This document shows, in pieces, positions 10,789 through 51,476 of a stretch of DNA of 64,000 bases. The DNA comes from Halorubrum lacusprofundi ATCC 49239 (GTDB lineage Archaea > Halobacteriota > Halobacteria > Halobacteriales > Haloferacaceae). The stretch covers positions 2,294,001 to 2,358,000 of the forward strand of contig NC_012029.1 in the NCBI RefSeq assembly GCF_000022205.1. The letters are read 5' to 3'. Made by a program: the position numbers and the translations under genes. Each line of letters begins with the position of its first letter. Position 1 is the first letter of the stretch. The notes below the pieces were generated by a model. It made no database searches. It was not told the origin of the DNA and saw only the letters and a list, made by a program, of their open reading frames with translations.

Positions 10789-11355
10789 TTACTCTTTAAC
10801 AGTGAATTGAACTGCAACCGCCTTGCCACTCTGTTCGTCACTCCCGTTCATCCAGAAATATACAAATCGGTACTTTCCCGGTACAATATCAGAGCAGATA
10901 TGGTGCCCTTCAGTAGACAGTCCTTCCCGTGTTACCGAAAATGACCATTTGAATCCTCCTCCCGGTTCATGCACGACGGCGTTTGCGTCGTACCCGTGAC
11001 TTTCGTCTACGTAGAAGAGGTGTTTCCACGCTCCATCAATCCTCTTCTGGATAGCAAAGAGTTCCTTGTTTGGGGTAGTTTGCACTTGATTCGTTGTATT
11101 TTCCAGCCGGAAAGTGAGTCTTCCCCCGAGAGAGACAGTCTCTGGGGAGGCGGTAAGTTCGAATCCGTGAGCGGTTCCATGCCGAACGTTATAGTCTTCC
11201 TCGAAATTAATCGCAAGTGGTTGGAGGTTATCACTACATCCCGAATCAGACGGCTCTTGTGTTGAGGGTGTAGTATTCGACTCACCAAGGGCAGTACAGC
11301 CTGCGAGTGCAGTGACGCTCGCTCCAATAGTACCAAGGTAGGTACGGCGATTCAT
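10789..11355 (-). CDS. Putative lipoprotein, AT-rich gene
   Basis: 188 residues. The N-terminus has an RR pair, a hydrophobic stretch and lipobox LAGC (Cys20), so it is likely a Tat- or Sec-exported lipid-anchored protein outside the cell. The mature part is a beta-rich domain of about 150 residues (SLGGRLTFRLEN..; GKYRFVYFW) that resembles immunoglobulin-like extracellular domains; no enzyme motif is seen. TATA-like catttatg at 11377-11384 is about 25 nt from the start. Codon use and base composition are clearly more AT-rich than every neighbouring gene, which suggests acquisition by transfer. Confidence 0.75.
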   Translation of the reverse strand: MNRRTYLGTIGASVTALAGCTALGESNTTPSTQEPSDSGCSDNLQPLAINFEEDYNVRHGTAHGFELTASPETVSLGGRLTFRLENTTNQVQTTPNKELFAIQKRIDGAWKHLFYVDESHGYDANAVVHEPGGGFKWSFSVTREGLSTEGHHICSDIVPGKYRFVYFWMNGSDEQSGKAVAVQFTVKE

Positions 11356-11644
11356 GTAAATAAATTGTTACTCGATGCATAAATGCTTTCAGTAAGAACA
11401 AAGGGCCGTTTGACTGATTCATCCCTCAGAGAATCAAGCGATTATTTCTGACGTGCCTGCCTTCAGGAGATAGGTTCTATATAGCATCATCCGGTATACG
11501 TCGGCGAACGCGGGACGATCGTCACCGAGCGCGACACAAGAGAAGAGCCGCTGGACAGGCGATTATCGGCGGAATTGGCGGAACGAAACTCCGAGAGCCG
11601 CGGCTCTGGAGCGAGCGATAACGTGGAAAAGACGAATCAGCGGT

Positions 11645-12100
11645 CTACGCGTAGCGTTCGAGTTCCGGCCGGTCGAGGTCCTCGAAGACGTCGGCGGCGA
11701 CCTCGGAGAGGAAGGCCTCGCCGTCGTCGGAAATCCGGCGACCCTCGCCGGCGGCGGTCGTCACGAGCCCGTCCTCTTCGAGGGCCTGCAGCGACGCGCG
11801 GATGAGCTTGCGGGAGCCGCCCTCGTGCTCGCCGGGGCGGACGGAGTAGCGGTTCGAACCGCGCTTCTTCGAGCCGTACTCGGTCGCGAGCCGCTCGATG
11901 CCGATCGGCTCGTTCTGGGCGACCTTTCGGAGGAGACTGGCGGAGCGCACGTACCAGAAGTCCTCCTGTTCCGGCGGGAGCTCCTTGCCGGCGCCGCTCT
12001 TGGCGAATTCGACCCAGTCGGGCTCGTCGATCCGGTCTTCGAGTCGTGCGGCGACTTCCTCGATGAGGGCGTCGGCCGGCACGTCGTAGATGGTTACCAT
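11645..12100 (-). CDS. rps19e: 30S ribosomal protein S19e
   Basis: 151 residues, normal for archaeal S19e. Recognisable stretches are MVTIYDVPADALI, the conserved WYVRSASLLRKV, the basic YGSKKRGSNRYSVRPGEH and SRKLIRASLQALEEDGLV. It is a component of the small ribosomal subunit head and has a winged-helix fold. The ATG at 12100 is the family start; a longer open frame upstream is not conserved. HMG-CoA synthase lies 133 nt upstream on the same strand. Confidence 0.96.
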   Translation of the reverse strand: MVTIYDVPADALIEEVAARLEDRIDEPDWVEFAKSGAGKELPPEQEDFWYVRSASLLRKVAQNEPIGIERLATEYGSKKRGSNRYSVRPGEHEGGSRKLIRASLQALEEDGLVTTAAGEGRRISDDGEAFLSEVAADVFEDLDRPELERYA

Positions 12101-12233
12101 TGAGGTGAATTTCAGCCTAACGTCGTTTAAACCCATCGTATTCGAGAAGCGTCGTGTGACCGGTTTTCACGGGTAGCGGAGCCACAGAAACAAGATCGCG
12201 AGGGCGATATCTCGCCGTCGACTCTCTGAGAAG

Positions 12234-13577
12234 CTACTCGACGTACTCGTACTTCCGCTCGTTCATCCGACCCCAGCCGGTGAAGACGAACTCCGCCTCC
12301 GGCTGCGTGAACTCCTCGATCTCGCGTTCCACGTCCATGTCGTACTCGTGCACGTCGTGGACATCCTCGTACTCCTCCCACGTGAGGTCGTAGCGGGCCG
12401 CGAGCCGGTCGTCGATGTCGAGCTCCTCGATCTCCTCGCGCCAGCCTTCACGGACCGTCTCCGCGTGTATCTCTGCCTGTGCGCCGGAGCCGTAGGAGGC
12501 GACGAGCAGCGTGTCGCCGACGAATGAGCGGTCGCGGGTTAGGGCGTCTCGCAGCGCGCTGATCCGCGCGATGTGGACCGAGCTGGTGTACCAGTTGCCG
12601 ACCTCTCGCGAGAGGCCAAGCGTCGGCTCCACGACGGTGTCGTACCACGTCTGGTACTGCTCGGTGGTTTTCAGCTTGTCCATGTAGTCGCGAATGGCCT
12701 CCTCGTAGGCCTCGCGGTCGACGAAGTCGGCCTCCCGTGGCTGCCGGCCGATCTCGCCGGCGAGCGCGTCTTCGTACTCCGTATCGCGGATGACGTGGCG
12801 GTACGCCAGAAGCGCCGCCTTTCGGACCATACCGGGGAACGGCGTGTGGAACGGGGCGTACACGAAGTCGTCGAGTTCAATGTCATCGGTGACCGACTCG
12901 TAGTCTTCTAAGGCCTCTCGCATCCGGGAGAGGTACACCTGCACCGAGCGTTTGCCGTCGACGCTGGGGAACTGCTGATTCGGCTTTAGAAAGTCCGTCT
13001 CGTCTTTCGAGCCGTATCCCTGTTCCGTCGAGAGCGCGACGATCGAGGGGTCCTCGTCGATCAGCATCGCGACGGCGCCGGCGCCCTGTGTCGCCTCGCC
13101 GGGGTCGCCGCGGGCGTACAGCGCGGTGTCGGTCGTGATGACGATCGCCGGGCGGTCGCGGTTCCGTCCGGCGCGGATCCAGTTGTAGGCGTCGTCGATC
13201 GCCTGCGTGCCGGCCAGACACGCGAACTTGCGCTCGCCCTTGTTGGCGTGGGTGAAGTCGCCGTCGTACACCTGTTCGAGACAGCCGGCGATGTACGTCG
13301 ACACCGGCTTGGAGTGGTCGAACGCCGACTCGGTGGCGACGTCGATCCGGCCGATGTCCTCCGGCTTCAACCCCTTCCGGTCCATCAGCCCCTTCGCCGC
13401 GTTCGCGCCCATCGTGACGATGTCCTCGTACACGTCCGGGAACGAGGAGTTGTTGAGTCCGAGCCCCTTCGTGTATTTCTCCGGGTCGTCGCCCTTCTCC
13501 GGCGCGAACGTGCCCGGCAAGTCGAGCTTGAGCTTTCCGGTCCAGATCTCGACGGCGTCGATGCCGACTTCAGTCAT
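12234..13577 (-). CDS. hmgB: Hydroxymethylglutaryl-CoA synthase
   Basis: 447 residues. It condenses acetyl-CoA and acetoacetyl-CoA to HMG-CoA, the second step of the mevalonate pathway feeding archaeal isoprenoid lipids and carotenoids. The thiolase-like fold shows the catalytic Cys120 in KFACLAGTQA, the catalytic acid in DVATESAFDHSK (Glu83), and the downstream FHTPFPGMVRKAA with the active-site His. The family architecture is closer to the eukaryotic/bacterial-type synthase than to the short archaeal type. Intact and monocistronic. Confidence 0.95.
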   Translation of the reverse strand: MTEVGIDAVEIWTGKLKLDLPGTFAPEKGDDPEKYTKGLGLNNSSFPDVYEDIVTMGANAAKGLMDRKGLKPEDIGRIDVATESAFDHSKPVSTYIAGCLEQVYDGDFTHANKGERKFACLAGTQAIDDAYNWIRAGRNRDRPAIVITTDTALYARGDPGEATQGAGAVAMLIDEDPSIVALSTEQGYGSKDETDFLKPNQQFPSVDGKRSVQVYLSRMREALEDYESVTDDIELDDFVYAPFHTPFPGMVRKAALLAYRHVIRDTEYEDALAGEIGRQPREADFVDREAYEEAIRDYMDKLKTTEQYQTWYDTVVEPTLGLSREVGNWYTSSVHIARISALRDALTRDRSFVGDTLLVASYGSGAQAEIHAETVREGWREEIEELDIDDRLAARYDLTWEEYEDVHDVHEYDMDVEREIEEFTQPEAEFVFTGWGRMNERKYEYVE

Positions 13578-19944: not shown

Positions 19945-22323
19945 ATGATCGCGGCGCTGGCACGGGACGCGAAGCGGGAGGCCGAGGCGGCGAACGAGCG
20001 GCGCGTTCTCGTGTTCGCCGGCGACCGCGACAGCGGGATCGACGCGGCCTACGACGCGATCGAGGCGGTCGATCCCACATCGACCGCTATCGTCTCCACG
20101 CGCGAGGGGTTCCGGTTCGAGGAACATCGCCCACGGAGCACCGATGAACTACTCGGCCGAACCCGCGAGGTCGTCGTCCTCGACTGCCACGAGCAGTTCG
20201 TCCCGAACGCCCTCGGCCGGAGCGTCGGCGCGGTCGACGGCGGCGGCCTCCTCGTCCTCCTGACTCCCGGCCTCGACGCGTGGCCCGCGATCCGCGACCG
20301 ATTCGACGACTCGCTCGCGGTCCCGCCCTACGGGATCGAGGACGTGACGGGCCGGTTTCGCGAGCGCTTCGTCGGGACGCTTCGGTCGCATCCGGGGATC
20401 GCGGTCGTCTCGCTCGGGACGGGCCCGGACGGGAACGACGCGATCGAGCGCGACGGGCTCGTCGGTTCTCGGGGCGACGCGGCCGCAGAACCGACCGTGC
20501 AGGCGACGGCGGAGAAACCGACTACGCCGCCAAACGCCCCGCCGAACGCGACGTTCCCGGCGGCGGCCTACGAGGCGTGTCTCACGGACGACCAGGTGCG
20601 AGCGGTGAGGGCATTCGAGTCGCTGGCGACGCCGGGACACGCGGTCGTCGCCGAGGCGGACCGCGGGCGCGGGAAGTCGAGCGCGGCGGGGATCGCGGCG
20701 GGCGCGCTCGCGCTCTCGGGCGCCGACGTGCTCGTCACGGCGCCGGCGTTCCGCAACGCGGCGGAGGTGTTCGCGCGAGCGAGCGAGCTGATCGAGGGGA
20801 GCGAGAGCGACGGCGAGGACGGAGACGGCGACGGCGGAAACGAGCGGAACAGCGAGGGCGACACCCACCGCATCGACGCGCCGGGCGGGGGGCGGGTGCG
20901 CTTCCTCGCGCCCGCCGAGGCGGCCGACCTCCCCGACGACCCGGACGCCGTGATCGTCGACGAGGCGGCCGCGCTCCCGGTTCGGCTGTTAGAGGGGTTC
21001 CTCGACGCGCCAGCGGTCGCGTTCTGCACGACGGTCCACGGCTACGAGGGCGCCGGTCGCGGGTTCGCGATCCGGTTTAAAGAGCGCCTGCGCGCGAGCC
21101 CGTTCGCGGTTCGAGATGTGCGACTCGACGAGCCGATCCGGTACGCGCGAAACGACCCGGTGGAGGCGTGGGCGTCGCGGGCGCTCCTGTTGGACGCGCG
21201 CCCGGCGGTCGACGAGGCGGTCGCGGGCTCGGCGGTCGGGGACGCGACGTACCGACGGCTGACCCCTGACGAGCTGCTCGCGGACGAGGCCCTACTCCGT
21301 GAAGCGTTCGGGCTGCTCGTCGCTGCCCACTACCGCACGGAGCCGAACGACCTCGCGCGACTACTCGACGCGCCGAACCTCGCCGCACGGGCGCTCGTCG
21401 CCGAGGGGCGGGTGGTCGCGGTCGCGCTGCTCGCGCGGGAGGGCAGGCTCGACGCGGAAACCCGCCGACGGATGTACGAGGGCGAGCGCGTCCGCGGCAA
21501 CATGGTTCCGGACGTGCTCACGAGCCAGCTCCGCGACGAGACCGCCGCCGAGCCGTGTGGCCTGCGGACGGTCCGGATCGCGACTCACCACGCACTCAGA
21601 GGCGAGGGGTTCGGTACTCGCCTGCTCGACGAGGTCCACGAGGAGTTCGGCGAGGGCGGCGGGAGGGGCACGGACGGCGACTGCGATGGCGACACCGTCG
21701 ACTACTTCTCGGTCGGCTACGGCGCGACCCCGCGCCTGCTCCGCTTCTGGCGGCGGGCGGGCTACCGGACGGTCCACCTCTCGACCTCCCGTAACGACGC
21801 CTCCGGGGAACACTCCGCGATCATGCTTCGGCCGACCGGCGAGGACGGACCGGGAAGTCGCCTCCTCGACCGCCACGCCGCCGCCTTCCGCGACCGCGAG
21901 CGCGACGGGCTCTCGGACGCCCACCGCGACGTGGACCCCGATGTGGTCGCCGGCGCGCTTCGAGCCTGTCCCGCGTCGATGCCGATCGACCTGACAGAGA
22001 TCGAGTGGCGTTCCGTCGTGGGCGCGTCGTACGGTCCCGGGATGTACGACAGCGCGCCCGGCGCGTTCCGGGACCTCGCGCTCGCGGCGCTGATCGAGGG
22101 TGACGACGGGAGCGAGACGGGCGACGCCCTCGACGACCGCGAGGAGCGCCTGCTCGTCCGAAAGGTCCTGCAGGGCCGCCCGTGGGAGTCGGTCGCCGAC
22201 GAACTCGGGTACGTCTCGACGGCCGCCTGCATGCGGGCGCTCGGCGACGCCTACGAGCCGCTCGTCGAGCGATACGGGACCGAGTTCGCGCTCGAAGAGC
22301 GGGAGCGATTTATAAGCGACTGA
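19945..22323 (+). CDS. tmcA: tRNA(Met) cytidine acetyltransferase
   Basis: 792 residues. TmcA/Nat10-type enzyme that makes N4-acetylcytidine using acetyl-CoA and ATP. Domain order: N-terminal TmcA domain (1-150), RNA helicase module with Walker A GRGKSS near 241-246 and a DEAA box VIVDEAAALP near 337-346, GNAT acetyltransferase domain about 430-640 (ALVAEGRVVAVALLAREG; TVRIATHHALRGEGFGTRLL), and a C-terminal tRNA-binding region. A hydrophilic Glu/Asp/Gly insert of about 25 residues lies between helicase motifs. The last codons encode a TTATAA motif (22310-22315) that belongs to the adjacent repeat region. Confidence 0.94.
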   Translation: MIAALARDAKREAEAANERRVLVFAGDRDSGIDAAYDAIEAVDPTSTAIVSTREGFRFEEHRPRSTDELLGRTREVVVLDCHEQFVPNALGRSVGAVDGGGLLVLLTPGLDAWPAIRDRFDDSLAVPPYGIEDVTGRFRERFVGTLRSHPGIAVVSLGTGPDGNDAIERDGLVGSRGDAAAEPTVQATAEKPTTPPNAPPNATFPAAAYEACLTDDQVRAVRAFESLATPGHAVVAEADRGRGKSSAAGIAAGALALSGADVLVTAPAFRNAAEVFARASELIEGSESDGEDGDGDGGNERNSEGDTHRIDAPGGGRVRFLAPAEAADLPDDPDAVIVDEAAALPVRLLEGFLDAPAVAFCTTVHGYEGAGRGFAIRFKERLRASPFAVRDVRLDEPIRYARNDPVEAWASRALLLDARPAVDEAVAGSAVGDATYRRLTPDELLADEALLREAFGLLVAAHYRTEPNDLARLLDAPNLAARALVAEGRVVAVALLAREGRLDAETRRRMYEGERVRGNMVPDVLTSQLRDETAAEPCGLRTVRIATHHALRGEGFGTRLLDEVHEEFGEGGGRGTDGDCDGDTVDYFSVGYGATPRLLRFWRRAGYRTVHLSTSRNDASGEHSAIMLRPTGEDGPGSRLLDRHAAAFRDRERDGLSDAHRDVDPDVVAGALRACPASMPIDLTEIEWRSVVGASYGPGMYDSAPGAFRDLALAALIEGDDGSETGDALDDREERLLVRKVLQGRPWESVADELGYVSTAACMRALGDAYEPLVERYGTEFALEERERFISD

Positions 22324-22353
22324 CGGATCGACGGCGGATGTTTATAAACGAGA

Positions 22354-22792
22354 TGCGGTGGCGTGCGCCTGCGAGCGGCCGATAGGCCGCGAGCAGCGAG
22401 GGACCTCCGGTCCCTCTGGCAGCCGGCGGCGGAGCCGCCGGCGACAGCCCGCACGAGGGAGTCGGTCGGCGCTTATAAGCGCCGACCGACGAGGCTGGGG
22501 AGGTGTGAGGCTGCGGTCCCGCGAGCAACGCGAGCGGGAGCATGGAAGTCGCAGCCCGCGCAGCGAAGCGAGCAGGATCGTCTTCCGGCGGTGCTGTGCG
22601 GGGTGGGACTCAAAGGGGCAGCCGGCGGGGGCGGAGCACGCTGCAGCAAGCACCGCAGCGAGGGAGCGGTAGCGACTGAGTGAGGAGCGCAGCAAAGCGC
22701 GCGAGTCCTCGCCGGCTGGGGCTTTGGAGGTGTTTGCTGTCGATCTGCCAGCAACCACTTATAAGCGAGCGGCTAGGTCTTTGGAGGTGTTC
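22354..22792 (-). repeat. Structured intergenic repeat, copy 2 (inverted, longer)
   Basis: Same element as 1504-1756 read on the minus strand, in the same order. Two tandem GAACACCTCCAAAG-type motifs come first (22779-22792 and about 22727-22740), then an 8-bp stem (22710-22717 with 22620-22627). The shared blocks GGCTGCCCCTTTGAGTCCC and CCTCACACCTCCCCAGCCTC follow, then a 30-bp palindrome, and finally the 27-bp terminal block at 22354-22380. It is about 190 bp longer than copy 1, with extra hairpin-forming sequence near 22401-22443. The intervening stem sequences differ from copy 1 but stay self-complementary. Confidence 0.85.
22461..22490. repeat. 30-bp perfect palindrome centred on CTTATAAG
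   Basis: Arms GTCGGTCGGCG and CGCCGACCGAC flank CTTATAAG with no mismatch. It replaces the different 24-bp palindrome at the matching position of copy 1. Confidence 0.92.
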
Positions 22793-22880
22793 ACCACAAA
22801 GTTACTGATCGCTTATAAACGACTGTTTGAGATTCTAGAAGTGGTTATCTCCAGAAACGACTTATAAAGGAAACTCCGAT

Positions 22881-23237
<357 letters not shown>

Positions 23238-23316
23238 TTAACCCCCGCGGCAAGAGACCGGTGAGGGAGCCTCGGGGACCACCCGAAACCGGCGACAGGT
23301 GGCCGCGAGACGCCGA

Positions 23317-25089
23317 CTACGGATGCGCGTAGTACGCGAGCAGGTCCTCCTCGCCGGTCGGCCCGTCGGGCTCGTCGGTCGCCTCGGGATCGAACGCGTC
23401 GATCCGGGCGAAGCCGACCCGCACGAACTGGACGACGGTGTCGGGATCGACCTCGGCGACTGCGGGCTCGGCGATCCCGCGAACGTCGCCGGAGACGGTA
23501 CGGAGGAGGGTGTCGAGCCCCTCGTCGGCCGGCGCCCAGTGGATCACGTCCACGTCGCCGTCGCGGACGACGTCGATACTGGCGCCGACAAAGGTCAGCT
23601 CGTCGCCCTCGTACCGGACGCAGCCGTACCCCTTGAGCCAGACGCGCTCGCCCTCGCTCGGGAGGTCGGAGGATTCGACGGCGATCCGGCCGGCTGGCAC
23701 CTCGCGCTCGCCGCGGTCCGGATAATCGGGGTGGAGCGGCGGGTGGCCGGTCTCAGGGGCGGACGCGTCGCCGTCGACGACCGGGAGTTCCACGGCGGGG
23801 TCGTCGTCGCGGTCGCGCACGAAGAAGTACCGGTTCGCCTCGTCGTCGACCAAGTCGCGGTTGTTCGCGTACACGGAGGACATCGCGAGGTCGACGTCGG
23901 AGGTGGACATCCCGAGCGCCGTCATCGAGTCGACAAGCGCCTGTCCCTGAATCCCGCGGCGTCGCATCGACTGGATCGTCGGGGCGCGCGGGTCGTCCCA
24001 GCCGGTGAGTTCGCCGGTCTCGATGAGCTCCTTGATCGTCGACGTGGAGAGCTTCACGTCGTACTCGTCGACCTGCACGTGGCCCCAGTGGAGCACCTCG
24101 GGGTACTCCCAGTCGAAGTAGTCGTAGACGAACCGCTGGCGCTTCGCGGAGTCCTGCAGGTCGATCCCGCGGATGATGTGCGTGACGCCGGTGAGGTGGT
24201 CGTCGACGCCGGACTGGAAGTCGAGCATGGGCCAACAGCGGTAGTCGGCCGCTTCCTCGCGCGGGTGCGGCGTGTCGATCATCCGGAACGCAACCCAGTC
24301 GCGGAGCGCGGGATTCTTGTGCTCGATGTCGGTCCGCACGCGGAGGACCATCTCGCCGGCGGAATACTCGCCGTCGACCATCGCCGAGAACTCCTCGTGA
24401 ACCGTCTCGGTGTCCTTGTCGCGGTGGGGGCACGCCTCGGCGTCGTTTTTGAGCGCCGAGAAGTCGTCGCCGGAACACGAGCAGGTGTAGGCGCCGCCGG
24501 CATCGATCAGGTCACGGGCGTGGTCGTAGTAGGTCTCCAGCCGGTCGGAGGCCTTCAGCACGCGGTCGGCCTCGAACCCGAGGTACGCGATGTCTTCGAG
24601 GATGGCGTCGTACGCGTCCATATCGGGGCGTTTCGTCTCCGGGTCGGTGTCGTCGAACCGGCAGATGAACTTGCCGTCATACCGCTCCTTGTACGTCCCG
24701 ATCACTGCGGGCATGCGCGCGTGGCCGACGTGCCACGGGCCGTTGGGGTTCGGCGCGGCGCGCATCACGACCTCGCCGTCCTCGGCGTTCGGGAGGTCAG
24801 GGAGGACGTGGTCGTCCTCCTCGTCTTCGGCCTCGAGCTCCGCGAGCTTGTCGGGCGCGAGCTCGCCGAGCCGGTCACGGCGCTCGGCCTCGTCCATGCC
24901 GGCGATCCGGTTTACGACGGGCGCGACGATCCCGGGTATCTCGTCGCCGTGCGGTCGAAAGTCGGGGTTCTCGCCCATGAGCGGGCCCATGATGGCACCC
25001 ACGTCCGGGTCGTTGCCGTGTTTGAGCGCGTTGAACAGCGCGGCGGCCTCGCTGGCCGCCTCGACGCGCTCGCGGAGTTCGTCGTCCAT
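23317..25089 (-). CDS. gltX: Glutamyl-tRNA synthetase (archaeal GluRS)
   Basis: 590 residues. Class I synthetase with the HIGH-type motif as HVGH in NPNGPWHVGHARM near residue 119, the GluRS glutamate-binding region FICRFDDTDPETKRP, and a KMSKS-type loop VKLSTSTIK near 343, followed by the beta-barrel anticodon-binding half. Archaeal GluRS is usually non-discriminating, charging tRNA-Gln with Glu for later amidation by GatDE/GatCAB. The helical N-terminal extension (first 100 residues) is normal for the archaeal/eukaryotic type. ATG 25089 gives the family length; an upstream open frame is not conserved. Confidence 0.95.
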   Translation of the reverse strand: MDDELRERVEAASEAAALFNALKHGNDPDVGAIMGPLMGENPDFRPHGDEIPGIVAPVVNRIAGMDEAERRDRLGELAPDKLAELEAEDEEDDHVLPDLPNAEDGEVVMRAAPNPNGPWHVGHARMPAVIGTYKERYDGKFICRFDDTDPETKRPDMDAYDAILEDIAYLGFEADRVLKASDRLETYYDHARDLIDAGGAYTCSCSGDDFSALKNDAEACPHRDKDTETVHEEFSAMVDGEYSAGEMVLRVRTDIEHKNPALRDWVAFRMIDTPHPREEAADYRCWPMLDFQSGVDDHLTGVTHIIRGIDLQDSAKRQRFVYDYFDWEYPEVLHWGHVQVDEYDVKLSTSTIKELIETGELTGWDDPRAPTIQSMRRRGIQGQALVDSMTALGMSTSDVDLAMSSVYANNRDLVDDEANRYFFVRDRDDDPAVELPVVDGDASAPETGHPPLHPDYPDRGEREVPAGRIAVESSDLPSEGERVWLKGYGCVRYEGDELTFVGASIDVVRDGDVDVIHWAPADEGLDTLLRTVSGDVRGIAEPAVAEVDPDTVVQFVRVGFARIDAFDPEATDEPDGPTGEEDLLAYYAHP

Positions 25090-44408: not shown

Positions 44409-44804
44409 CTACGCGACGTGGTCCGTGATCCACGCGGTGAGATCGTCGCCGGGGATGAACCCCTCCGCGCGGCGTGCGACCGGCTCGCCGTCGACGAACA
44501 GCACGAACAGCGGGACGCTCCGCACGTCGAACCGCTCGACGAGCGGCGGGTCGTCCCGGGGATTCACCGTGGCGACGGCGAGGTCAAGCTCGCGGGCGAC
44601 GTTGCCGAGGACGGGCTCCATGCTTGCGCAGATCCCGCAGCCGTCCGTGTAGAACTCGATCACGGCGGCGTCCGCGTCGGCGACAAACGCATCAAGTGCG
44701 TCCTCGTCGGCGAGGGATACCGGTCGACGGACCTCTGTGGATGTGCTGCTTCCGGACACATCGTCCGCAGGTTCGGAGGCGCCCGATTCAGTATTGTTTT
44801 TCAT
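44409..44804 (-). CDS. Thioredoxin family protein
   Basis: 131 residues from ATG 44804. A Ser/Asp/Glu-rich tail of about 35 residues precedes a thioredoxin fold with FYTDGCGICASMEP (CGIC instead of CGPC) and VRSVPLFVLF for the cis-Pro loop. The altered central dipeptide usually means different redox tuning from the housekeeping thioredoxin at 3584-3925. It could also start at GTG 44810. Alone on the minus strand after the helicase operon, with 60 nt between them. Confidence 0.88.
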   Translation of the reverse strand: MKNNTESGASEPADDVSGSSTSTEVRRPVSLADEDALDAFVADADAAVIEFYTDGCGICASMEPVLGNVARELDLAVATVNPRDDPPLVERFDVRSVPLFVLFVDGEPVARRAEGFIPGDDLTAWITDHVA

Positions 44805-44864
44805 GCACACTATTGGTGTCGAGCGGTGATAAAGGCTTGCGTCCGGATCGCGACGGAGCCGACC

Positions 44865-47800
44865 TCATCGGCCAAGGAAGCGTTGCAGTCGCCGATGAAC
44901 GATATCGGGCGGCCACGAGGTCGCTGTCGTCTCGGTTGCGACGCCGAACGTCTCGACGGTCCGGTGGACGCGCACGTCGGACGCACCGCTCTGTCGCGCG
45001 AGGAACGCGTACGCAGCGATCTGGAGCTCGTATCGCCGTCGTGTCTCGGAGCTCGGCTCGGTCAGGGCGATCTTCACGTCTGTCACGAACCGGTCTCCGG
45101 TCGGATATTCCACGACGAAGTCCGCCCGTCCGTGGATCTCGACTCCGAGATCGCCGACCTCGGCCAGCCCGTCCAGCGGTCGTTCGGTGTCGACGACGGT
45201 CGCTGGATCTGCGATCCGGTCCCACAGGTCGGAGTCGAGGAAGTCGTCGAGGACTGTCTCGAAGAACGCGAACATTCCCTCGCGTTCGGCCTCGCCGACC
45301 GGTTCCGGGATCGCGTTCACGGCCTCGTCGAAGGCCGTGCGCACCTCCGGTCCCGTCGTTCGAATCGCCCGTTCGTCGACGCCGCGGGCGACCAGTTCCG
45401 TGAGCGCGTCGTGAAGACACGTCCCCACCGCCTCGGGGCCGAGCCGATCGAATCGGAGAGGGAGATCGCCGGAGACCTCGTTCGTCGTCGTGTGCAGCGG
45501 CTCGCCCAGCAGGTGGGCGAGCGCGTACCGATCCACATCCTCCGTCAGCGGGTACATTGTGCTGGGGCTCAGGAATCGAGGGACCCACGGGTCGAGCCGG
45601 TCTCGCCGTGGGGGGGATTCAGTGGCCTCGTCGCGCCCGGTCCGAGGAGCCGGACGAGCACGCCGAGCGAACAGATCCGCGTCGTTGACGCCGATCTCGA
45701 TCGCGTCCCGGTTCGGATCCGAGTCGAGCAGCAGCTCGTAGGAGTCGGTGCCGCCGCGTCGGAACGCCAGCCCGTCGCGAATCGCGTCGAGCCACCGGTC
45801 CCGGGTCCGGTCTTCCTCCAGATTCGAGCGGGGTAGCGGAACAACGAGGTGGTCCCGAGCCCGCGTCAGTGCCACGTACAGCAGCCGCCACGCCTCGGCA
45901 CGCTCGTTCCCCGCGACGCGGCGGAGCCGGTCCGGACCGACGAGCGCGTCGCGATCCGCGGAATCGTTTGCAGAGTCAGACCCAGAATCCTTCGCGGAGT
46001 CGGACCCAGAATCCTTCGCGGAGTCAGACGCAGAATCGGACACGGATGTGGACACGGTGTCCCGCCAGCGGGCCGTCGCCCAGCGGAGCCCGGCGTCGCG
46101 GTCCCAGTCGTCCCCGACGCCGTACAGCCCGCCGTCGAACGGCGGGATAGCGATGTCGTCGGGCACCTCCGTGTTCGTCGGCGGGGCCAGCCCCGCGAGC
46201 GGTCCCTGCGCGACGAACCACCGGGCGTGGGGACCGTGCGACCAGATGTCGAACCCGGGGTCAGCGACGACGACGACGTCGTCTTGGTCCCCCTTGGCTC
46301 GGTGAATCGTGCGGAACTCGACGTCGTAGGCGGCGCCGGCCGCGCTCGGCTGCGTCGGGCCGACGCCGGGGTCCTCGCGGAACGGCTCCGCGAGGTCGAC
46401 CAGCTCCGACGGCGAGTAGCTATTGTCTCCCTCCCACTCGGAGAGCGTCTCGACGAGCGCGTCCAGATTGGCGACCCGCTGATCCGGATCGGTGTCGCCG
46501 ACGCACCCGTTCGGATCGGCCCGCAGCGCGAGCGCCTCGATTACGTCCTCGACGTACTCGCTCGCCGGGAGCCGGCCGAAGGCGTCGCTCCGATCGCGGA
46601 GTCGGACGAGTCCGCGGAGGATCCCCCGCTGTTCCTCCCCGACGGCGGCCGGGTCGTCGTCGAGCACCCGATCGAGGTCCCACGACCGAGACTCGAACGG
46701 GGCCGCGTCAAACGCGGCGTTCAGGGGAGACTCGGTGAGGAGTTTGCTCGTGCGCTGCGGAGAGCCGGGCGCGGTCAGCCACTCGCAAGCGGCGAGCGCC
46801 GTCTCGACGGCGGGGCAGTCGAACAGCGCGTCGGTCGCAGTGCGGACCCGGAGGCCTTCCGCGGCGAACGCCGCCTCGTACTCGGGCATCCGCGTCCCGC
46901 GGCGGAACAGCACCGTGACGCCGAGCGGGTCGCCGTCGTCGTTGCAGAAGGTTCCGTCGGCGAGCCCCCGCGAGATGTGGGTCGCGAGCATGTTCGCCTC
47001 CCCGAGCTCCCCGTCGGGGTCCGCCCACATCGCGGAGCCGGGGTGACCGATGCCTGCGAACGACGAGACGTGGACCGCGGCTCCATCGCCGCCCTCGCCG
47101 CCGTCGCGAGCCGCGTCCAACCGCGGGTACGAGGCGTCGAGGTCGCCGAGGTTCCCGCGAGCTGGGTCGGAGAACACCGGCTCGGCGATAGCGTTGATCC
47201 CTGCGGCGATATCGGGCACGCACCGATAGGTGGTGGTCGCCGTCCGGTTCTCGTGGGTGTCCCAGTCCACACCGAGGTACGTCCCCTCGGTCGTCGCGGC
47301 GGCGAACCACCGCGGGTCGGCGTGTCGCCACAGGTAGATCCCTTGGAGGCCGTCGCCGCAGGCGAACACGCGCGACTCGCTCGTTACGACGTGCGAGAGC
47401 GCGGCGTGCTGGACGGCAGACACGTCCTGTGCCTCGTCGATGACCAGACTCCGGATCCGCGACCGGTACGTCCGGAGGACCCGATCACGGTGTGAGCCGT
47501 CGACGGAGCGGAGCGGCTCGGGGAGGTCCGATCGCTCGCCAGACCTGTCGAAGTACGCGTCCACGAGGGAGGCGACGTCCGTGTGCGAGACCGCACCGTA
47601 CTCCCGAACTGCGGCCCGGTAACGGGTCCGGTACGCCGAGAGGACGGTACAGAAGTCGTCGATGCGCGCGTCCCACGCGTCGTACAGCTCGCGGTCGGCG
47701 TCGAGCAGGCGCTCTCGGTCCGGGCCGATCACCGTCTCCCGGACTCGTTCGCCGGTTCCCTCGCTAGCGTTTTCGTCACCGTTGGCAAATCGCTCGACGG

Positions 47801-48527
47801 ATCGCACGATATCGTCGAACGAGTCCGGCTTCCCGCCGGGATACGCCGAATCGCGTGTCTGTTCCAGCTCCGACCGGAACGCCTCGGTCGAGAGGCGTCG
47901 ATCGCGGCAGTACGTCAGCGCGTCCGCCAGCATTTCGTCGACGCCCTCGTCGTACTCGCCGTCCGGATACGCGGCTTCGAGGTCGCGGAGCCGCCGGGCG
48001 TGCTCCGGGTCGTTTCGGAGCGACTCGTAGCAGTCGCGGTGGACCCGTTTCAAGAGCGCGTCGTTCCCGACCGACGGCATCTCGTCGAAACCGATATCGC
48101 GCGCGAATTCCCGGAATATCTCGCGCAGGAGTCCATCGATGGTGCCCGCGTAAGGGGCCTGTCGCACGCGCTGTCGGAGGTATCGTAGCTCTGCCCCAGA
48201 GATGTCGGCCGCGGTGGGGACGAGGTCGTGTTCGACGATCGCCTGCAACCGATCGCAGATCGCCGGGACGATGTCGGCCGCCTCGTCGCGGTTAAACGAG
48301 ACGACCGTGACGTGCTGTTCAGGTGTCGGGTCCCCGGCCGCGTATCGGCGGAGGATGTCCTCGGCGGCGACGTGGTGGGCGACGACCGATTTGCCGGCCC
48401 CCGGAACGCAGTCGAGGGTGAACAGCCCGGAATCGGACGCGAAGTACGCGTCCCTGATCTCCCGCTGTGCGCCCCGTAATCGGATGGGGTCAGCGTCGCC
48501 GTCGCCGTCACCACCATCGTCACTCAC
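44865..48527 (-). CDS. AddA/RecB-like UvrD helicase-nuclease
   Basis: 1220 residues from GTG 48527. Superfamily 1A helicase motifs in order: Walker A VPGAGKS at 41-47, VVSFNRDEA, motif II LVIDEAQDVSAVQ near 362, motif III VFACGDGLQGIYLW, TTYRCVPDIAAGI, motif V VEFRTIHRAKGDQDDVVVV and motif VI LLYVALTRARDHLVV near 882. A C-terminal PD-(D/E)XK RecB nuclease follows: GRADF near 1132, TDVKIAL near 1148, QIAAY. A Ser/Asp repeat linker (about 830-860) interrupts domain 2. It should process DNA ends for recombination. It is the last gene of a three-gene operon; GTGAGTGA overlap with the AddB-like gene. Start could also be ATG 48548. Confidence 0.85.
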   Translation of the reverse strand: MSDDGGDGDGDADPIRLRGAQREIRDAYFASDSGLFTLDCVPGAGKSVVAHHVAAEDILRRYAAGDPTPEQHVTVVSFNRDEAADIVPAICDRLQAIVEHDLVPTAADISGAELRYLRQRVRQAPYAGTIDGLLREIFREFARDIGFDEMPSVGNDALLKRVHRDCYESLRNDPEHARRLRDLEAAYPDGEYDEGVDEMLADALTYCRDRRLSTEAFRSELEQTRDSAYPGGKPDSFDDIVRSVERFANGDENASEGTGERVRETVIGPDRERLLDADRELYDAWDARIDDFCTVLSAYRTRYRAAVREYGAVSHTDVASLVDAYFDRSGERSDLPEPLRSVDGSHRDRVLRTYRSRIRSLVIDEAQDVSAVQHAALSHVVTSESRVFACGDGLQGIYLWRHADPRWFAAATTEGTYLGVDWDTHENRTATTTYRCVPDIAAGINAIAEPVFSDPARGNLGDLDASYPRLDAARDGGEGGDGAAVHVSSFAGIGHPGSAMWADPDGELGEANMLATHISRGLADGTFCNDDGDPLGVTVLFRRGTRMPEYEAAFAAEGLRVRTATDALFDCPAVETALAACEWLTAPGSPQRTSKLLTESPLNAAFDAAPFESRSWDLDRVLDDDPAAVGEEQRGILRGLVRLRDRSDAFGRLPASEYVEDVIEALALRADPNGCVGDTDPDQRVANLDALVETLSEWEGDNSYSPSELVDLAEPFREDPGVGPTQPSAAGAAYDVEFRTIHRAKGDQDDVVVVADPGFDIWSHGPHARWFVAQGPLAGLAPPTNTEVPDDIAIPPFDGGLYGVGDDWDRDAGLRWATARWRDTVSTSVSDSASDSAKDSGSDSAKDSGSDSANDSADRDALVGPDRLRRVAGNERAEAWRLLYVALTRARDHLVVPLPRSNLEEDRTRDRWLDAIRDGLAFRRGGTDSYELLLDSDPNRDAIEIGVNDADLFARRARPAPRTGRDEATESPPRRDRLDPWVPRFLSPSTMYPLTEDVDRYALAHLLGEPLHTTTNEVSGDLPLRFDRLGPEAVGTCLHDALTELVARGVDERAIRTTGPEVRTAFDEAVNAIPEPVGEAEREGMFAFFETVLDDFLDSDLWDRIADPATVVDTERPLDGLAEVGDLGVEIHGRADFVVEYPTGDRFVTDVKIALTEPSSETRRRYELQIAAYAFLARQSGASDVRVHRTVETFGVATETTATSWPPDIVHRRLQRFLGR

Positions 48528-49806
48528 GGTTTCCCTCCGACTCTCCATCGCCTCGCTCCGATCCGTCACCGACGACCGCCCGCAGTTCCGGCGGAAGCTC
48601 CCGCTCCGTCCCGATCAGCCGCCGCCGGGCATCTTCAGAGACCCGCCGCGTATCGAGGTGATCGAGCAGCGGGGAGCGGGCCACGTCGTCGCCGCCGGAC
48701 GTTCGGGTATGTCGGGTGAAGACGACGCACCGCCCCGCCGCCCGGAGCACGTCCCCGAACTGATCGCGGTCGCGGCCGCCGACCCACGCCGGCTGCGGCG
48801 CGAGCGTCCCCGTCGCTCCCTCCCCCCGGAGGATCGCCTCCTGGAACTCCGGAGGCAGCGGAGACCGCGACGGCTGTGGCCACTCTTCCGCCGTCATTCC
48901 GACACCGATCACGTACGGGACGTCAAGCGCCCAGATGTCGTTCGCCTCGAAAACGTCGAGCGCGCGGGCGTTCGAGTGCTCCCGACGACCGGGGCGCTGT
49001 GTAGCGATCACGCCGGCGAGATCGGCGACATCGGCCCACGAGCGCTCAATTGCGTCCTCTTCAAGACGGTCGGCAAACTTGTGTCGTAGCTGTCGGACGA
49101 GGGTACGAACCCGCACGATCGCCCGCGCGTCGGTCTCGGTGTCGAGCAACGCCGGCGAGTCCGCGACCTTCGTCTCTGGAAGCCCGCGTTCGGCGTACCC
49201 CTCCACCACCTCGCCGAGCAGCGAGGCGACCGAGACCGGCTCCAGCGGCGGAGCGGCGGCGATCCACTCGGCGAACCGCCGGATGCGGTCGTCGGCGCCG
49301 TCCGTCGAGTCGATCACCTCGATCCACTCGGGGATCGATCGTGGCCCGTTCGGGAGCATGATCCTTGCCCGGTGTACCGCCGCAGGCTCGATCGGCCATT
49401 CCGCCGGCGGGGGAGCTGAGCCCGACGAACCACCCGATCCCGGCGGCGACCACCGGAGTTCGAGCGGACGCAGCAGTGTCTCGCGGTCCACGGTGTCCCC
49501 GGCCAGCGCCCCGCACACTGATTCGACGAGGGCGTACGGGCGGGTCCGGGTCACGCGGAGCTGCGTCCAGAACACCGGTGCGATCCCGTACTGGAGCGCC
49601 GCCCGGAACAGCGGCTCCTCGTACGGATCGAGGTCGCGGACCGCGACAGCGATGTCCCGGACTGGAACGCCGCTGTCCCGGAGCGCGGCCGCCACCGCCA
49701 TCGCGCTGCGCGCCTCGTCCCGACGCGTCGGCGACGCGATCTCGATCGTCGGTACGTCGGGCGTGTCGATCGGTGCCGAGAGCGCGAGCCGGTCGGATCC
49801 CGTCAC
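48520..49806 (-). CDS. AddB-like protein, C-terminal half (no nuclease domain)
   Basis: 428 residues from GTG 49806. The segment IEIASPTRRDEARSAMAVAAALRDSGVP then IAVAVRDLDPYEEPLFRAALQYGIAPVF is the AddB/UvrD 2A-domain pattern, where an accessory helicase-like subunit lacks ATPase motifs. Later VFEANDIWALDVPYVIGVGMTAEEWPQ recalls the motif V/VI region. The protein stops at an acidic tail and has no C-terminal PD-(D/E)XK domain or iron-sulfur cysteines found in true AddB. GTGA overlaps with the preceding gene and GTGAGTGA with the helicase-nuclease gene. Confidence 0.7.
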   Translation of the reverse strand: MTGSDRLALSAPIDTPDVPTIEIASPTRRDEARSAMAVAAALRDSGVPVRDIAVAVRDLDPYEEPLFRAALQYGIAPVFWTQLRVTRTRPYALVESVCGALAGDTVDRETLLRPLELRWSPPGSGGSSGSAPPPAEWPIEPAAVHRARIMLPNGPRSIPEWIEVIDSTDGADDRIRRFAEWIAAAPPLEPVSVASLLGEVVEGYAERGLPETKVADSPALLDTETDARAIVRVRTLVRQLRHKFADRLEEDAIERSWADVADLAGVIATQRPGRREHSNARALDVFEANDIWALDVPYVIGVGMTAEEWPQPSRSPLPPEFQEAILRGEGATGTLAPQPAWVGGRDRDQFGDVLRAAGRCVVFTRHTRTSGGDDVARSPLLDHLDTRRVSEDARRRLIGTERELPPELRAVVGDGSERGDGESEGNRE

Positions 49807-50621
49807 TCGAACGCCTCCGTTCCGGGATCGGTGATAGCGAGGAGATCGGGGACTCGGCCCCGGAGGTACTCGCCGGTTCCCTCCCGAAAGTGAACGTGGA
49901 CCGTGAGGGACGTGGCAGCCAACAGCCCGTGGACGAGGTCGGTATGCGGCGCTGACAGGCTGCTGAGCCCGAGCAGCGTGAGCCGTTCGATCTCCGGGAA
50001 CGCCTCCGCCCACGCCGACCCGTTTGTCGCCGTGATCGACCGCGTCGCGCGGCGCAAGAGCGCCGTCTCCGAGACGGCTTTCGTGGTTCTCTCCCGCAGT
50101 TCGCGTTCGGCACCGAGGCCGGTTTCGAGGATCGTCTCCGCTTCGTCGTCGATCGGCTCGTCGATCTTGTCGGCCGTCTCACCCCAGGCCGCGAGCCGGT
50201 CCGGGTGGAAGTTGGTGATCGCTTCCACGTCGGTTCGGATCTGCTCGATCCGCTGCGGGTCCCCCGGCGCGGCTCCGGTCGGAAGAGAGAGTGTGGTCGG
50301 TTCGTCAGACCCTCCGGCTTCGAGGATCGACCGGATCAACGAGAGGCGATCGACGCGGTCGACGGCAGCGGTCGGACGGCCCGCCGTTTCCAAGACGCGG
50401 ACACAGATCCCGACCGGGTCCGCAAAGCGGAAGGCGTCCTTCGGCAGCCGCGCCTCGCGGAGCCGGCGCTGGATGTTCCGCTGGTGGAGTTCAACTGGGG
50501 AAACGACGAGTTCAGTCGGCTGCGAGCGTCGCCGAGCCCTGTCGAACAGCCGCTCTTCGTCACCAACGTGAAGCGTCAGTTGGTCCGGCGTCCAGTCGTG
50601 GTGTGTGTCCGTTGCATCCAT
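49803..50621 (-). CDS. AddB-like protein, N-terminal half
   Basis: 272 residues. Starts with LTLHVGDEERLFDRARR and VVSPVELHQRNIQRRLRE, followed by helical segments including RLSLIRSILEAG, and ends with LTVHVHFREGTGEYLRG. This is what would be expected for the 1A/1B part of an AddB-like subunit, ending where the next gene takes up the 2A-like part. No Walker A is visible. It is first in the operon and overlaps the second gene by GTGA. Assignment rests on layout and faint motif similarity. Confidence 0.6.
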   Translation of the reverse strand: MDATDTHHDWTPDQLTLHVGDEERLFDRARRRSQPTELVVSPVELHQRNIQRRLREARLPKDAFRFADPVGICVRVLETAGRPTAAVDRVDRLSLIRSILEAGGSDEPTTLSLPTGAAPGDPQRIEQIRTDVEAITNFHPDRLAAWGETADKIDEPIDDEAETILETGLGAERELRERTTKAVSETALLRRATRSITATNGSAWAEAFPEIERLTLLGLSSLSAPHTDLVHGLLAATSLTVHVHFREGTGEYLRGRVPDLLAITDPGTEAFE

Positions 50622-50801
50622 TGATCCGATGTGGTATCCGTCGTCGCCGCCCGTTCACCCTCCTTGCCTGAACCGTTGTCGGTCGCAGATCGGCTCGAGG
50701 TCGAGGCGGTCGAGGCGGTGACGGCGCTCGGCCCGTCCGTTTGCAGGCGTTCGGTCGGCGACGTGTTTTTATACGCTCGGAGAGGGTGATACGCTAACAC
50801 G

Positions 50802-51476
50802 ATGCCACGCGAACAGTACCAAACGAAACTGGAGGGGCTCCGGGACGACGTGCTCTACATGAGCGAGCTCGTCGCCGATCGGCTCCGCATGGGACTCGAC
50901 GCCTTGGAGCGTCAGGACGGCGAACTGGGCGAGAAAGTCATCACCGGCGACGCGGAGATCAACGATCTCTACCTCGAACTGGAGGGGCAGTGTACGGACC
51001 TCATCGCCCTCCAGCAGCCGGTCGCGGGCGATCTGCGTTTCATCGCCGCCTCGTTCAAGATCATCACCGATCTCGAACGGATCGCCGACCTCGCGACGAA
51101 CCTCGGCGAGTACGCCAAGCAGGCCGACCGAGAGGTGTTCCCCGACGTCGACGTGCAGCGCATCGGCGACGACACGCTGGCGATGCTCGACGACGCGATG
51201 GCCGCCTACGCCGAGTCGGACTCTGAGCGCTGTTTCGCGGTCGCCGAGGCGGACGACGACGTCGACGCCGCCTGTGAGGCCGCGAGCGAACTCGTCGTGC
51301 GCGACTTGATCGAACGCAACGAGCTCCGGGAGGAGACGGACCTCGAGGGAACGATGCGGAACGTCTCGCGACTCCTGCTGACAATCCGCGACCTCGAACG
51401 CGTCGGCGACCACGCGGTCAACATCGCGGCGCGCTCGCTGTACATGATCGAGAACGACGACGAGCTGCTGTACTGA
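50802..51476 (+). CDS. phoU: PhoU family phosphate-signalling protein
   Basis: 224 residues made of two three-helix PhoU repeats. Repeat 1 contains QQPVAGDLRFIAASFKIITDLERIADLATN; repeat 2 contains NVSRLLLTIRDLERVGDHAVNIA. The acidic helix faces bind metal clusters. PhoU restrains phosphate uptake by the Pst ABC transporter, but no pst genes are nearby. TATA-like ttttatac at 50767-50774 is about 30 nt upstream, so the transcript is nearly leaderless. The next gene follows after 5 nt. Confidence 0.94.
   Translation: MPREQYQTKLEGLRDDVLYMSELVADRLRMGLDALERQDGELGEKVITGDAEINDLYLELEGQCTDLIALQQPVAGDLRFIAASFKIITDLERIADLATNLGEYAKQADREVFPDVDVQRIGDDTLAMLDDAMAAYAESDSERCFAVAEADDDVDAACEAASELVVRDLIERNELREETDLEGTMRNVSRLLLTIRDLERVGDHAVNIAARSLYMIENDDELLY

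Follow-up and report, generated by a model that had tools for sequence, protein, structure and literature searches.

Machines of the AddAB/RecBCD type, which process DNA ends, are regarded as bacterial. In Bacillus AddAB (RexAB), an AddA motor with a C-terminal RecB nuclease is joined by AddB, which carries a C-terminal nuclease and Fe-S cysteines and, in B. subtilis, an N-terminal Walker A. E. coli RecBCD has one nuclease, located in the motor subunit RecB, and an inactivated helicase-like partner, RecC. Mycobacterial AdnAB is a heterodimer of UvrD-like folds in which helicase motifs and a nuclease are found in each subunit. AddB scans the 3' strand for Chi, the ionic latch of AddAB/RecBCD is a domain 2A insertion salt-bridged to domain 1B (PMC4824097), and in RecC a nuclease-like domain persists in inactivated form (PMC1185551). 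For archaea, the papers that we found describe resection by Mre11-Rad50 and HerA-NurA only (PMC7776575, PMC12977600), and we found no description of AddAB in haloarchaea in the open-access literature.

Here we analysed a stretch of 64,000 nucleotides from Halorubrum lacusprofundi ATCC 49239 (the window), in which the products of three consecutive genes (g1, g2 and g3; Table 1) probably form a one-motor, one-nuclease end machine, composed of an inactivated AddB/RecC-like subunit (g1+g2) and an AddA-like 3'-5' helicase-nuclease (g3); we put the probability of this reading at about 0.7. With Bacillus AddAB the unit shares an AddA-like motor with a C-terminal RecB nuclease and a partner of AddB fold, and AddAB chains are the best PDB matches for both subunits; it differs in an AddB-like subunit that has no Walker A, no C-terminal nuclease and no Fe-S cysteines and comes as two proteins in most members, and in being archaeal and mobile. 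Since the AddB nuclease, Fe-S cluster and Walker A are all missing, the trio belongs to the AddAB/RecBCD kind and is not AddAB itself. The single nuclease in the motor subunit and the inactivated helicase-like partner recall RecB and RecC, whereas there is no RecD (no further helicase gene is conserved beside the unit), the nuclease-like domain of RecC has no counterpart in g2, and sequence and fold scores place the pair nearer AddA/AddB than RecB/RecC. AdnAB is likewise a structural match to the fused form of the small subunit, yet g1 and g2 have neither the helicase motifs nor the nuclease of the Adn subunits. Gabija GajB and other defence UvrD helicases are related in that PADLOC assigns g3, weakly, mainly to generic GajB-type UvrD models; unlike in Gabija, there is no GajA/OLD-type nuclease here, and g3 combines its helicase with a RecB nuclease in one chain and has a partner of AddB type. 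With HerA-NurA and Mre11-Rad50 only the proposed role in archaeal DNA-end resection is shared, whereas their folds are unrelated and they are core genes in many archaea, not a mobile unit.

Gene layout and the AddA-like subunit

The ORFs and the sequence show three tightly packed minus-strand genes at 44865-50621 joined by GTGA and GTGAGTGA overlaps, in agreement with the three-gene operon of the first-pass annotation. Junctions of -8 and -4 are the commonest between g2 and g3 among the relatives, with 13 loci each, and because 13 relatives have the -8 junction we favour the GTG at 48527 as the g3 start; an upstream GTG at 48569, giving 1234 aa, is also possible.

Table 1 Features of the unit in the window and of its upstream operon in related loci (L numbers)
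Feature	Position	Strand	Size or remark	Basis
g1: N-terminal half of AddB-like subunit (predicted UvrD-like domains 1A/1B, without Walker A)	49803..50621	-	272 aa	ORF; co-linear with residues 1-270 of fused AddB-like proteins; HHalign 96.8 to N-terminus of haloarchaeal AddB homologues
g2: C-terminal half of AddB-like subunit (predicted domains 2A/2B)	48520..49806	-	428 aa, GTG start	ORF; co-linear with second half of fused proteins; tblastn 24% against the 1194-aa L056 AddB homologue
g3: AddA-like motor and nuclease subunit, UvrD/SF1A helicase and PD-(D/E)XK RecB nuclease	44865..48527	-	1220 aa	Pfam UvrD-helicase 7e-14, PDDEXK_1 2.5e-9; best PDB profile match AddA 3.4e-34; fold of homologue matches AddA
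GTGA stop/start overlap, g1/g2	49803..49806	-	4 bp	Sequence; identical 4-bp overlap in 41/43 split relatives
GTGAGTGA overlap, g2/g3	48520..48527	-	8 bp	Sequence; presumes g3 start at GTG 48527
RecB-type nuclease core of g3 (H, GRADF, TDVK, QIAAY)	45009..45420	-		H, E, D, K, Q and Y invariant in 30 aligned homologues
Inserted block between thioredoxin-like and PhoU-like genes	44811..50760	.	Ends placed to within about 50 bp only	Colinear empty site in genome G081
Thioredoxin-like flanking gene	44409-44810			
PhoU-like flanking gene	50802-51476			
Upstream wHTH/DUF7344/zinc-finger/HNH operon	L064:7148-9120, L066:7649-9127, L089:7175-9120, L069:1058-2518			

The first-pass annotation had also read g3 as a protein with UvrD helicase motifs and a RecB-type nuclease, and Pfam, the motifs and the alignment agree. 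All motifs of an SF1A helicase are present, by Pfam, motif alignment and profile and fold searches (including Walker A GAGKS, DEAQ, GDGLQGIYLWR and LYVALTRAR), followed by a C-terminal RecB-type PD-(D/E)XK nuclease with GRADF, TDVKIAL, QIAAY and an upstream H. Strict regular expressions caught the nuclease in 40 of 56 and Walker A in 50 of 56 g3 proteins, and the alignments show the residues to be conserved. After AddA, the g3 profile matched AdnB (2e-24) and RecB (1.6e-6) in the PDB, and the AlphaFold model of a g3 homologue, built from 30 rows (pLDDT 87.8), hit AddA chains in the top four places of a PDB fold search (E to 7e-34), with RecB next. Against the NCBIfam AddA equivalog, g3 scores 45.9 bits, under the cut-off of 707.65; the resemblance to AddA lies in the architecture and does not extend to orthology. 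The window's g3 further contains an acidic insert of SDSAKDSG-type repeats (~29 residues, 45954-46040), which the aligned homologues lack.

g1 and g2 as a probable AddB-like subunit

By HMMER, g1 and g2 (P0001 and P0002) had no significant match in Pfam, NCBIfam or PADLOC, the AddB equivalog models included, and a PDB profile search with the alignment of the fused family (A2) gave nothing significant. Weak NCBIfam, Pfam and PDB matches (e.g. PhpG, YflT, gp350) were taken as chance. With no match in the direct HMMER searches, g1+g2 are tied to AddB by a predicted fold and by way of intermediate homologues. The natural fusion of the two proteins in Haloferax elongans was modelled by AlphaFold at a mean pLDDT of 92.6 and a pTM of 0.89, from 41 aligned rows with P0001 and P0002 among them, the folded protein being the fused one and not the window's g1 and g2. 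Its five best PDB matches are B. subtilis AddB chains (4ceh_B at E 1.3e-18; 3u4q_B at TMq 0.67), and UvrD, RecC and AdnA/B rank behind them. In the profile comparison, HHalign aligned the fused family with full-size haloarchaeal AddB homologues at a probability of 99.8 (E 2e-29), and g1 alone with their N-terminus at 96.8. A profile of the three full-size sequences in turn reached AddB 3u44_B at 2.2e-7 and RecC weakly; phmmer with the single L056 AddB against the PDB gave nothing, so that AddB was reached only by the three-sequence profile. The comparison of the small proteins with AddB by HMMs, which the first-pass annotation had suggested, thus failed in direct family searches and succeeded with HHalign by way of the full-size homologues. 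Both lines, the fold search of the natural fusion and the profile chain, give g1+g2 an AddB-type UvrD-like fold, and because g1+g2 and g3 lead to AddAB independently of each other, we prefer it over RecBC or AdnAB as the nearest relative.

The alignment of the fused family reaches residue 699 of 1158 in the full-size homologues, which is where the Fe-S/nuclease module starts, and g2, whose motif is GRREHxNA...DxxxANDxW...GxxxxEWP, ends ahead of that domain. Walker A occurs in 0 of 58 AddB-like relatives, the nuclease motif was found in no g2 or fused protein among them, and the last 120 residues of the 58 homologues hold 0-2 Cys, short of a four-cysteine Fe-S cluster. The description of g1 and g2 as halves of a non-ATPase AddB-like subunit therefore stands on the fusion's predicted fold and the absent ATPase motif, and that of a subunit devoid of the AddB nuclease domain and Fe-S cysteines on the HHalign end, the Cys counts and the motif scan. 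Any functions that the Fe-S domain may have in AddAB cannot come from the g1, g2 and g3 proteins. By co-linear alignment, the inactivated fold would have its 1A/1B side in g1 and its 2A/2B side in g2; behind the GLxDGEWP motif of g2 comes a stretch of ~30 residues, at the place expected for an ionic-latch insertion. That g1 and g2 are instead unrelated small proteins upstream of a stand-alone UvrD-nuclease fusion, on the model of the described UvrD-Cas4 fusions (PMC5704561), accords with their lack of family matches, yet it is contradicted by fold, profile, natural fusion and covariation (see below) and is very improbable.

The full-size haloarchaeal AddB homologues are themselves rare (L056:8229-15520, L156:1480-4869, L157:1489-4986; three genomes only here). 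They are the closest sequence relatives of g1+g2 and, like them, have no Walker A; unlike them, they keep a C-terminal domain with four Fe-S-type cysteines, in which the nuclease D-x-K is apparently lost. The AddB partner in L056 is AddA-like with C-terminal cysteines of its own. From the three sequences, these homologues look like an intermediate state.

Distribution, co-inheritance and mobility

All relatives of the trio found are haloarchaeal. Among the genomes searched, homologues of g2 occur in 26 of 119 from the family and in 11 of 30 from the genus, while a profile search of the phylum found 17 of 393 genomes, every one within one order; the named collection comprises 58 loci, all Halobacteria. 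Conservation of gene order in haloarchaea, raised as a check by the first-pass annotation, was confirmed in that the trio or duo recurs as a unit in the 58 named loci. Neither of the two results that would have spoken against the first-pass reading, a predicted fold unlike AddB or the lack of a conserved trio, was thus obtained. g3 directly follows g1-g2 nearly everywhere, the exceptions being contig ends and two Halobaculum plasmids. On the H. marinum plasmid (L121), g1-g2 (11141-13140) and g3 (20170-23760) lie 7 kb of other genes apart, a natural experiment on whether the separated genes still cooperate, and on the H. litoreum plasmid no g3 was found within 10 kb of g1-g2. The split of AddB holds for the window and for 43 of the 58 loci, 41 of them with the exact 4-bp overlap, but not as a constant feature, since 15 of 58 have g1-g2 as one gene of 671-746 aa; it is the state of one clade only. 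On the g3 tree, whose root depends on one long outgroup, split and fused states need two changes only, which are most simply read as a single main split followed by a re-fusion (Natrialba/Salinadaptatus). A g2 remnant with internal stops, beside which no g1 or g3 was found (L055:9436-9802), is probably a decayed copy. dN/dS lies at 0.16-0.43 in g1, g2 and g3 alike, and by this measure the three proteins are under purifying selection; their distance matrices covary (Mantel r 0.94-0.975). With the order recurring in 58 named loci, the 41 of 43 identical overlaps, the dN/dS values and the covariation, the trio is far beyond chance.

Families are intermixed on the g3 tree, the copies in Halohasta and Halobacterium share 98% nucleotide identity across 7.3 kb, and in several genome pairs homology breaks off right at the g3 stop or a few bases from it, and ~0.5 kb before g1. 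In genome G081, which has its own more distant copy on another contig, the thioredoxin-like and PhoU-like genes lie 147 bp apart and colinear with the window, forming an empty site, so that the whole unit is gained or lost in one piece. The unit is thus accessory and horizontally mobile, exchanged between families, and not core. Since it is missing from most close relatives, a role in essential repair is excluded. The broader idea of an enzyme for chromosomal double-strand-break repair, in place of Mre11-Rad50/HerA-NurA or as their backup, draws on the precedent of AddAB/RecBCD in bacteria (PMC5030088) and on the window's own Halorubrum clade, where the flanks are conserved and the chromosomal site is fixed; we consider it unlikely, given that most genomes of the genus lack the trio and that its own genome already has NurA-domain genes. 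A Rad50 zinc-hook model gave no match, which carries no weight since it missed the Haloferax volcanii control as well.

Several genomes carry two copies of the unit, and it is found in 15 plasmid records, with g2 (or the fused form) annotated as hypothetical protein in 15 of 15. Some of these plasmid copies are near orc1/cdc6, ParA or primase-associated genes, as would fit a plasmid-borne aid to plasmid replication, partition or recombination, i.e., an element-encoded RecBC-like function; however, the neighbours are not conserved and many copies, the window's included, are chromosomal, which leaves this role rather improbable. Viral contigs held no relative, and the viral fold library returned generic UvrD-type helicases only.

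In part of the split clade, an operon of a small wHTH, a DUF7344 wHTH, a ~175-aa zinc-finger-like protein and an HNH endonuclease, with overlapping ends, lies 60 bp before g1, and subsets of it occur elsewhere. The HNH nuclease directly precedes g1 in four loci, and a fifth, more distant homologue is found in L092. This operon, together with the patchy presence, the between-family transfer, the double copies and the plasmid records, suggests, tentatively, an anti-virus or anti-plasmid defence in which the complex destroys linear foreign DNA, HNH makes entry breaks in some loci and winged-helix proteins regulate. Against it, HNH is present in few loci and the window's trio stands alone without it, and the 15 plasmid carriers suggest that the unit tolerates or serves plasmids. 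Nor is there a clear island signal: g1 and g2 have no PADLOC match to a known defence system, and among 143 neighbouring proteins no defence family recurred, the strong PADLOC matches belonging to families with one or two proteins each, mostly DISARM/BREX-type helicase models.

On the other side of the unit, a HINT/LAGLIDADG-like ORF directly follows g3 in three loci (L090:13543-14604, L041:4329-5315, L118:13965-14948), annotated as a LAGLIDADG homing endonuclease on Haloferax gibbonsii pHG3; it is as if an intein had turned into a free gene.

Proposed mechanism and significance

For the end machine proposed here, g1+g2 would pair with g3 in one complex, which would load on dsDNA ends. The g3 ATPase would then drive duplex unwinding, with a polarity that we infer, and the strand or strands passing the single g3 nuclease would be cut. 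The dead helicase folds of g1 and g2 would most likely direct the 3' strand, once displaced, to the nuclease, and they may read its sequence as AddB reads Chi.

The extra archaeal end-processing complex of the first-pass annotation is supported as an AddAB-like unit and was too broadly put, the genes being accessory, mobile and haloarchaeal only. Its role is likely that of an accessory, transferable DNA-end processor, acting in recombination and/or in the degradation of foreign linear DNA, alongside the core set of archaeal resection genes. A defence role gains slightly from the mobility, the carriage of several copies and the link with HNH, and loses from the absent island signal. The unit could possibly represent a mobile archaeal class of end-dependent helicase-nucleases, in which the AddB scanner shed its nuclease and Fe-S domain and was split between its RecA-like lobes, serving as a portable immunity or recombination module that would come, in some loci, with an HNH nuclease and regulators of its own and might even read a Chi-like signal of haloarchaea.

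The minimal, split and nuclease-less AddB provides a naturally occurring case in which the scanner is separate from the nuclease and its two lobes are separate from each other. If the proposed reading is true, many haloarchaeal strains carry an unrecognised end-processing machine, and the unit can alter transformation, the fate of plasmids and viruses, and the results of recombination in archaeal genetic model organisms.
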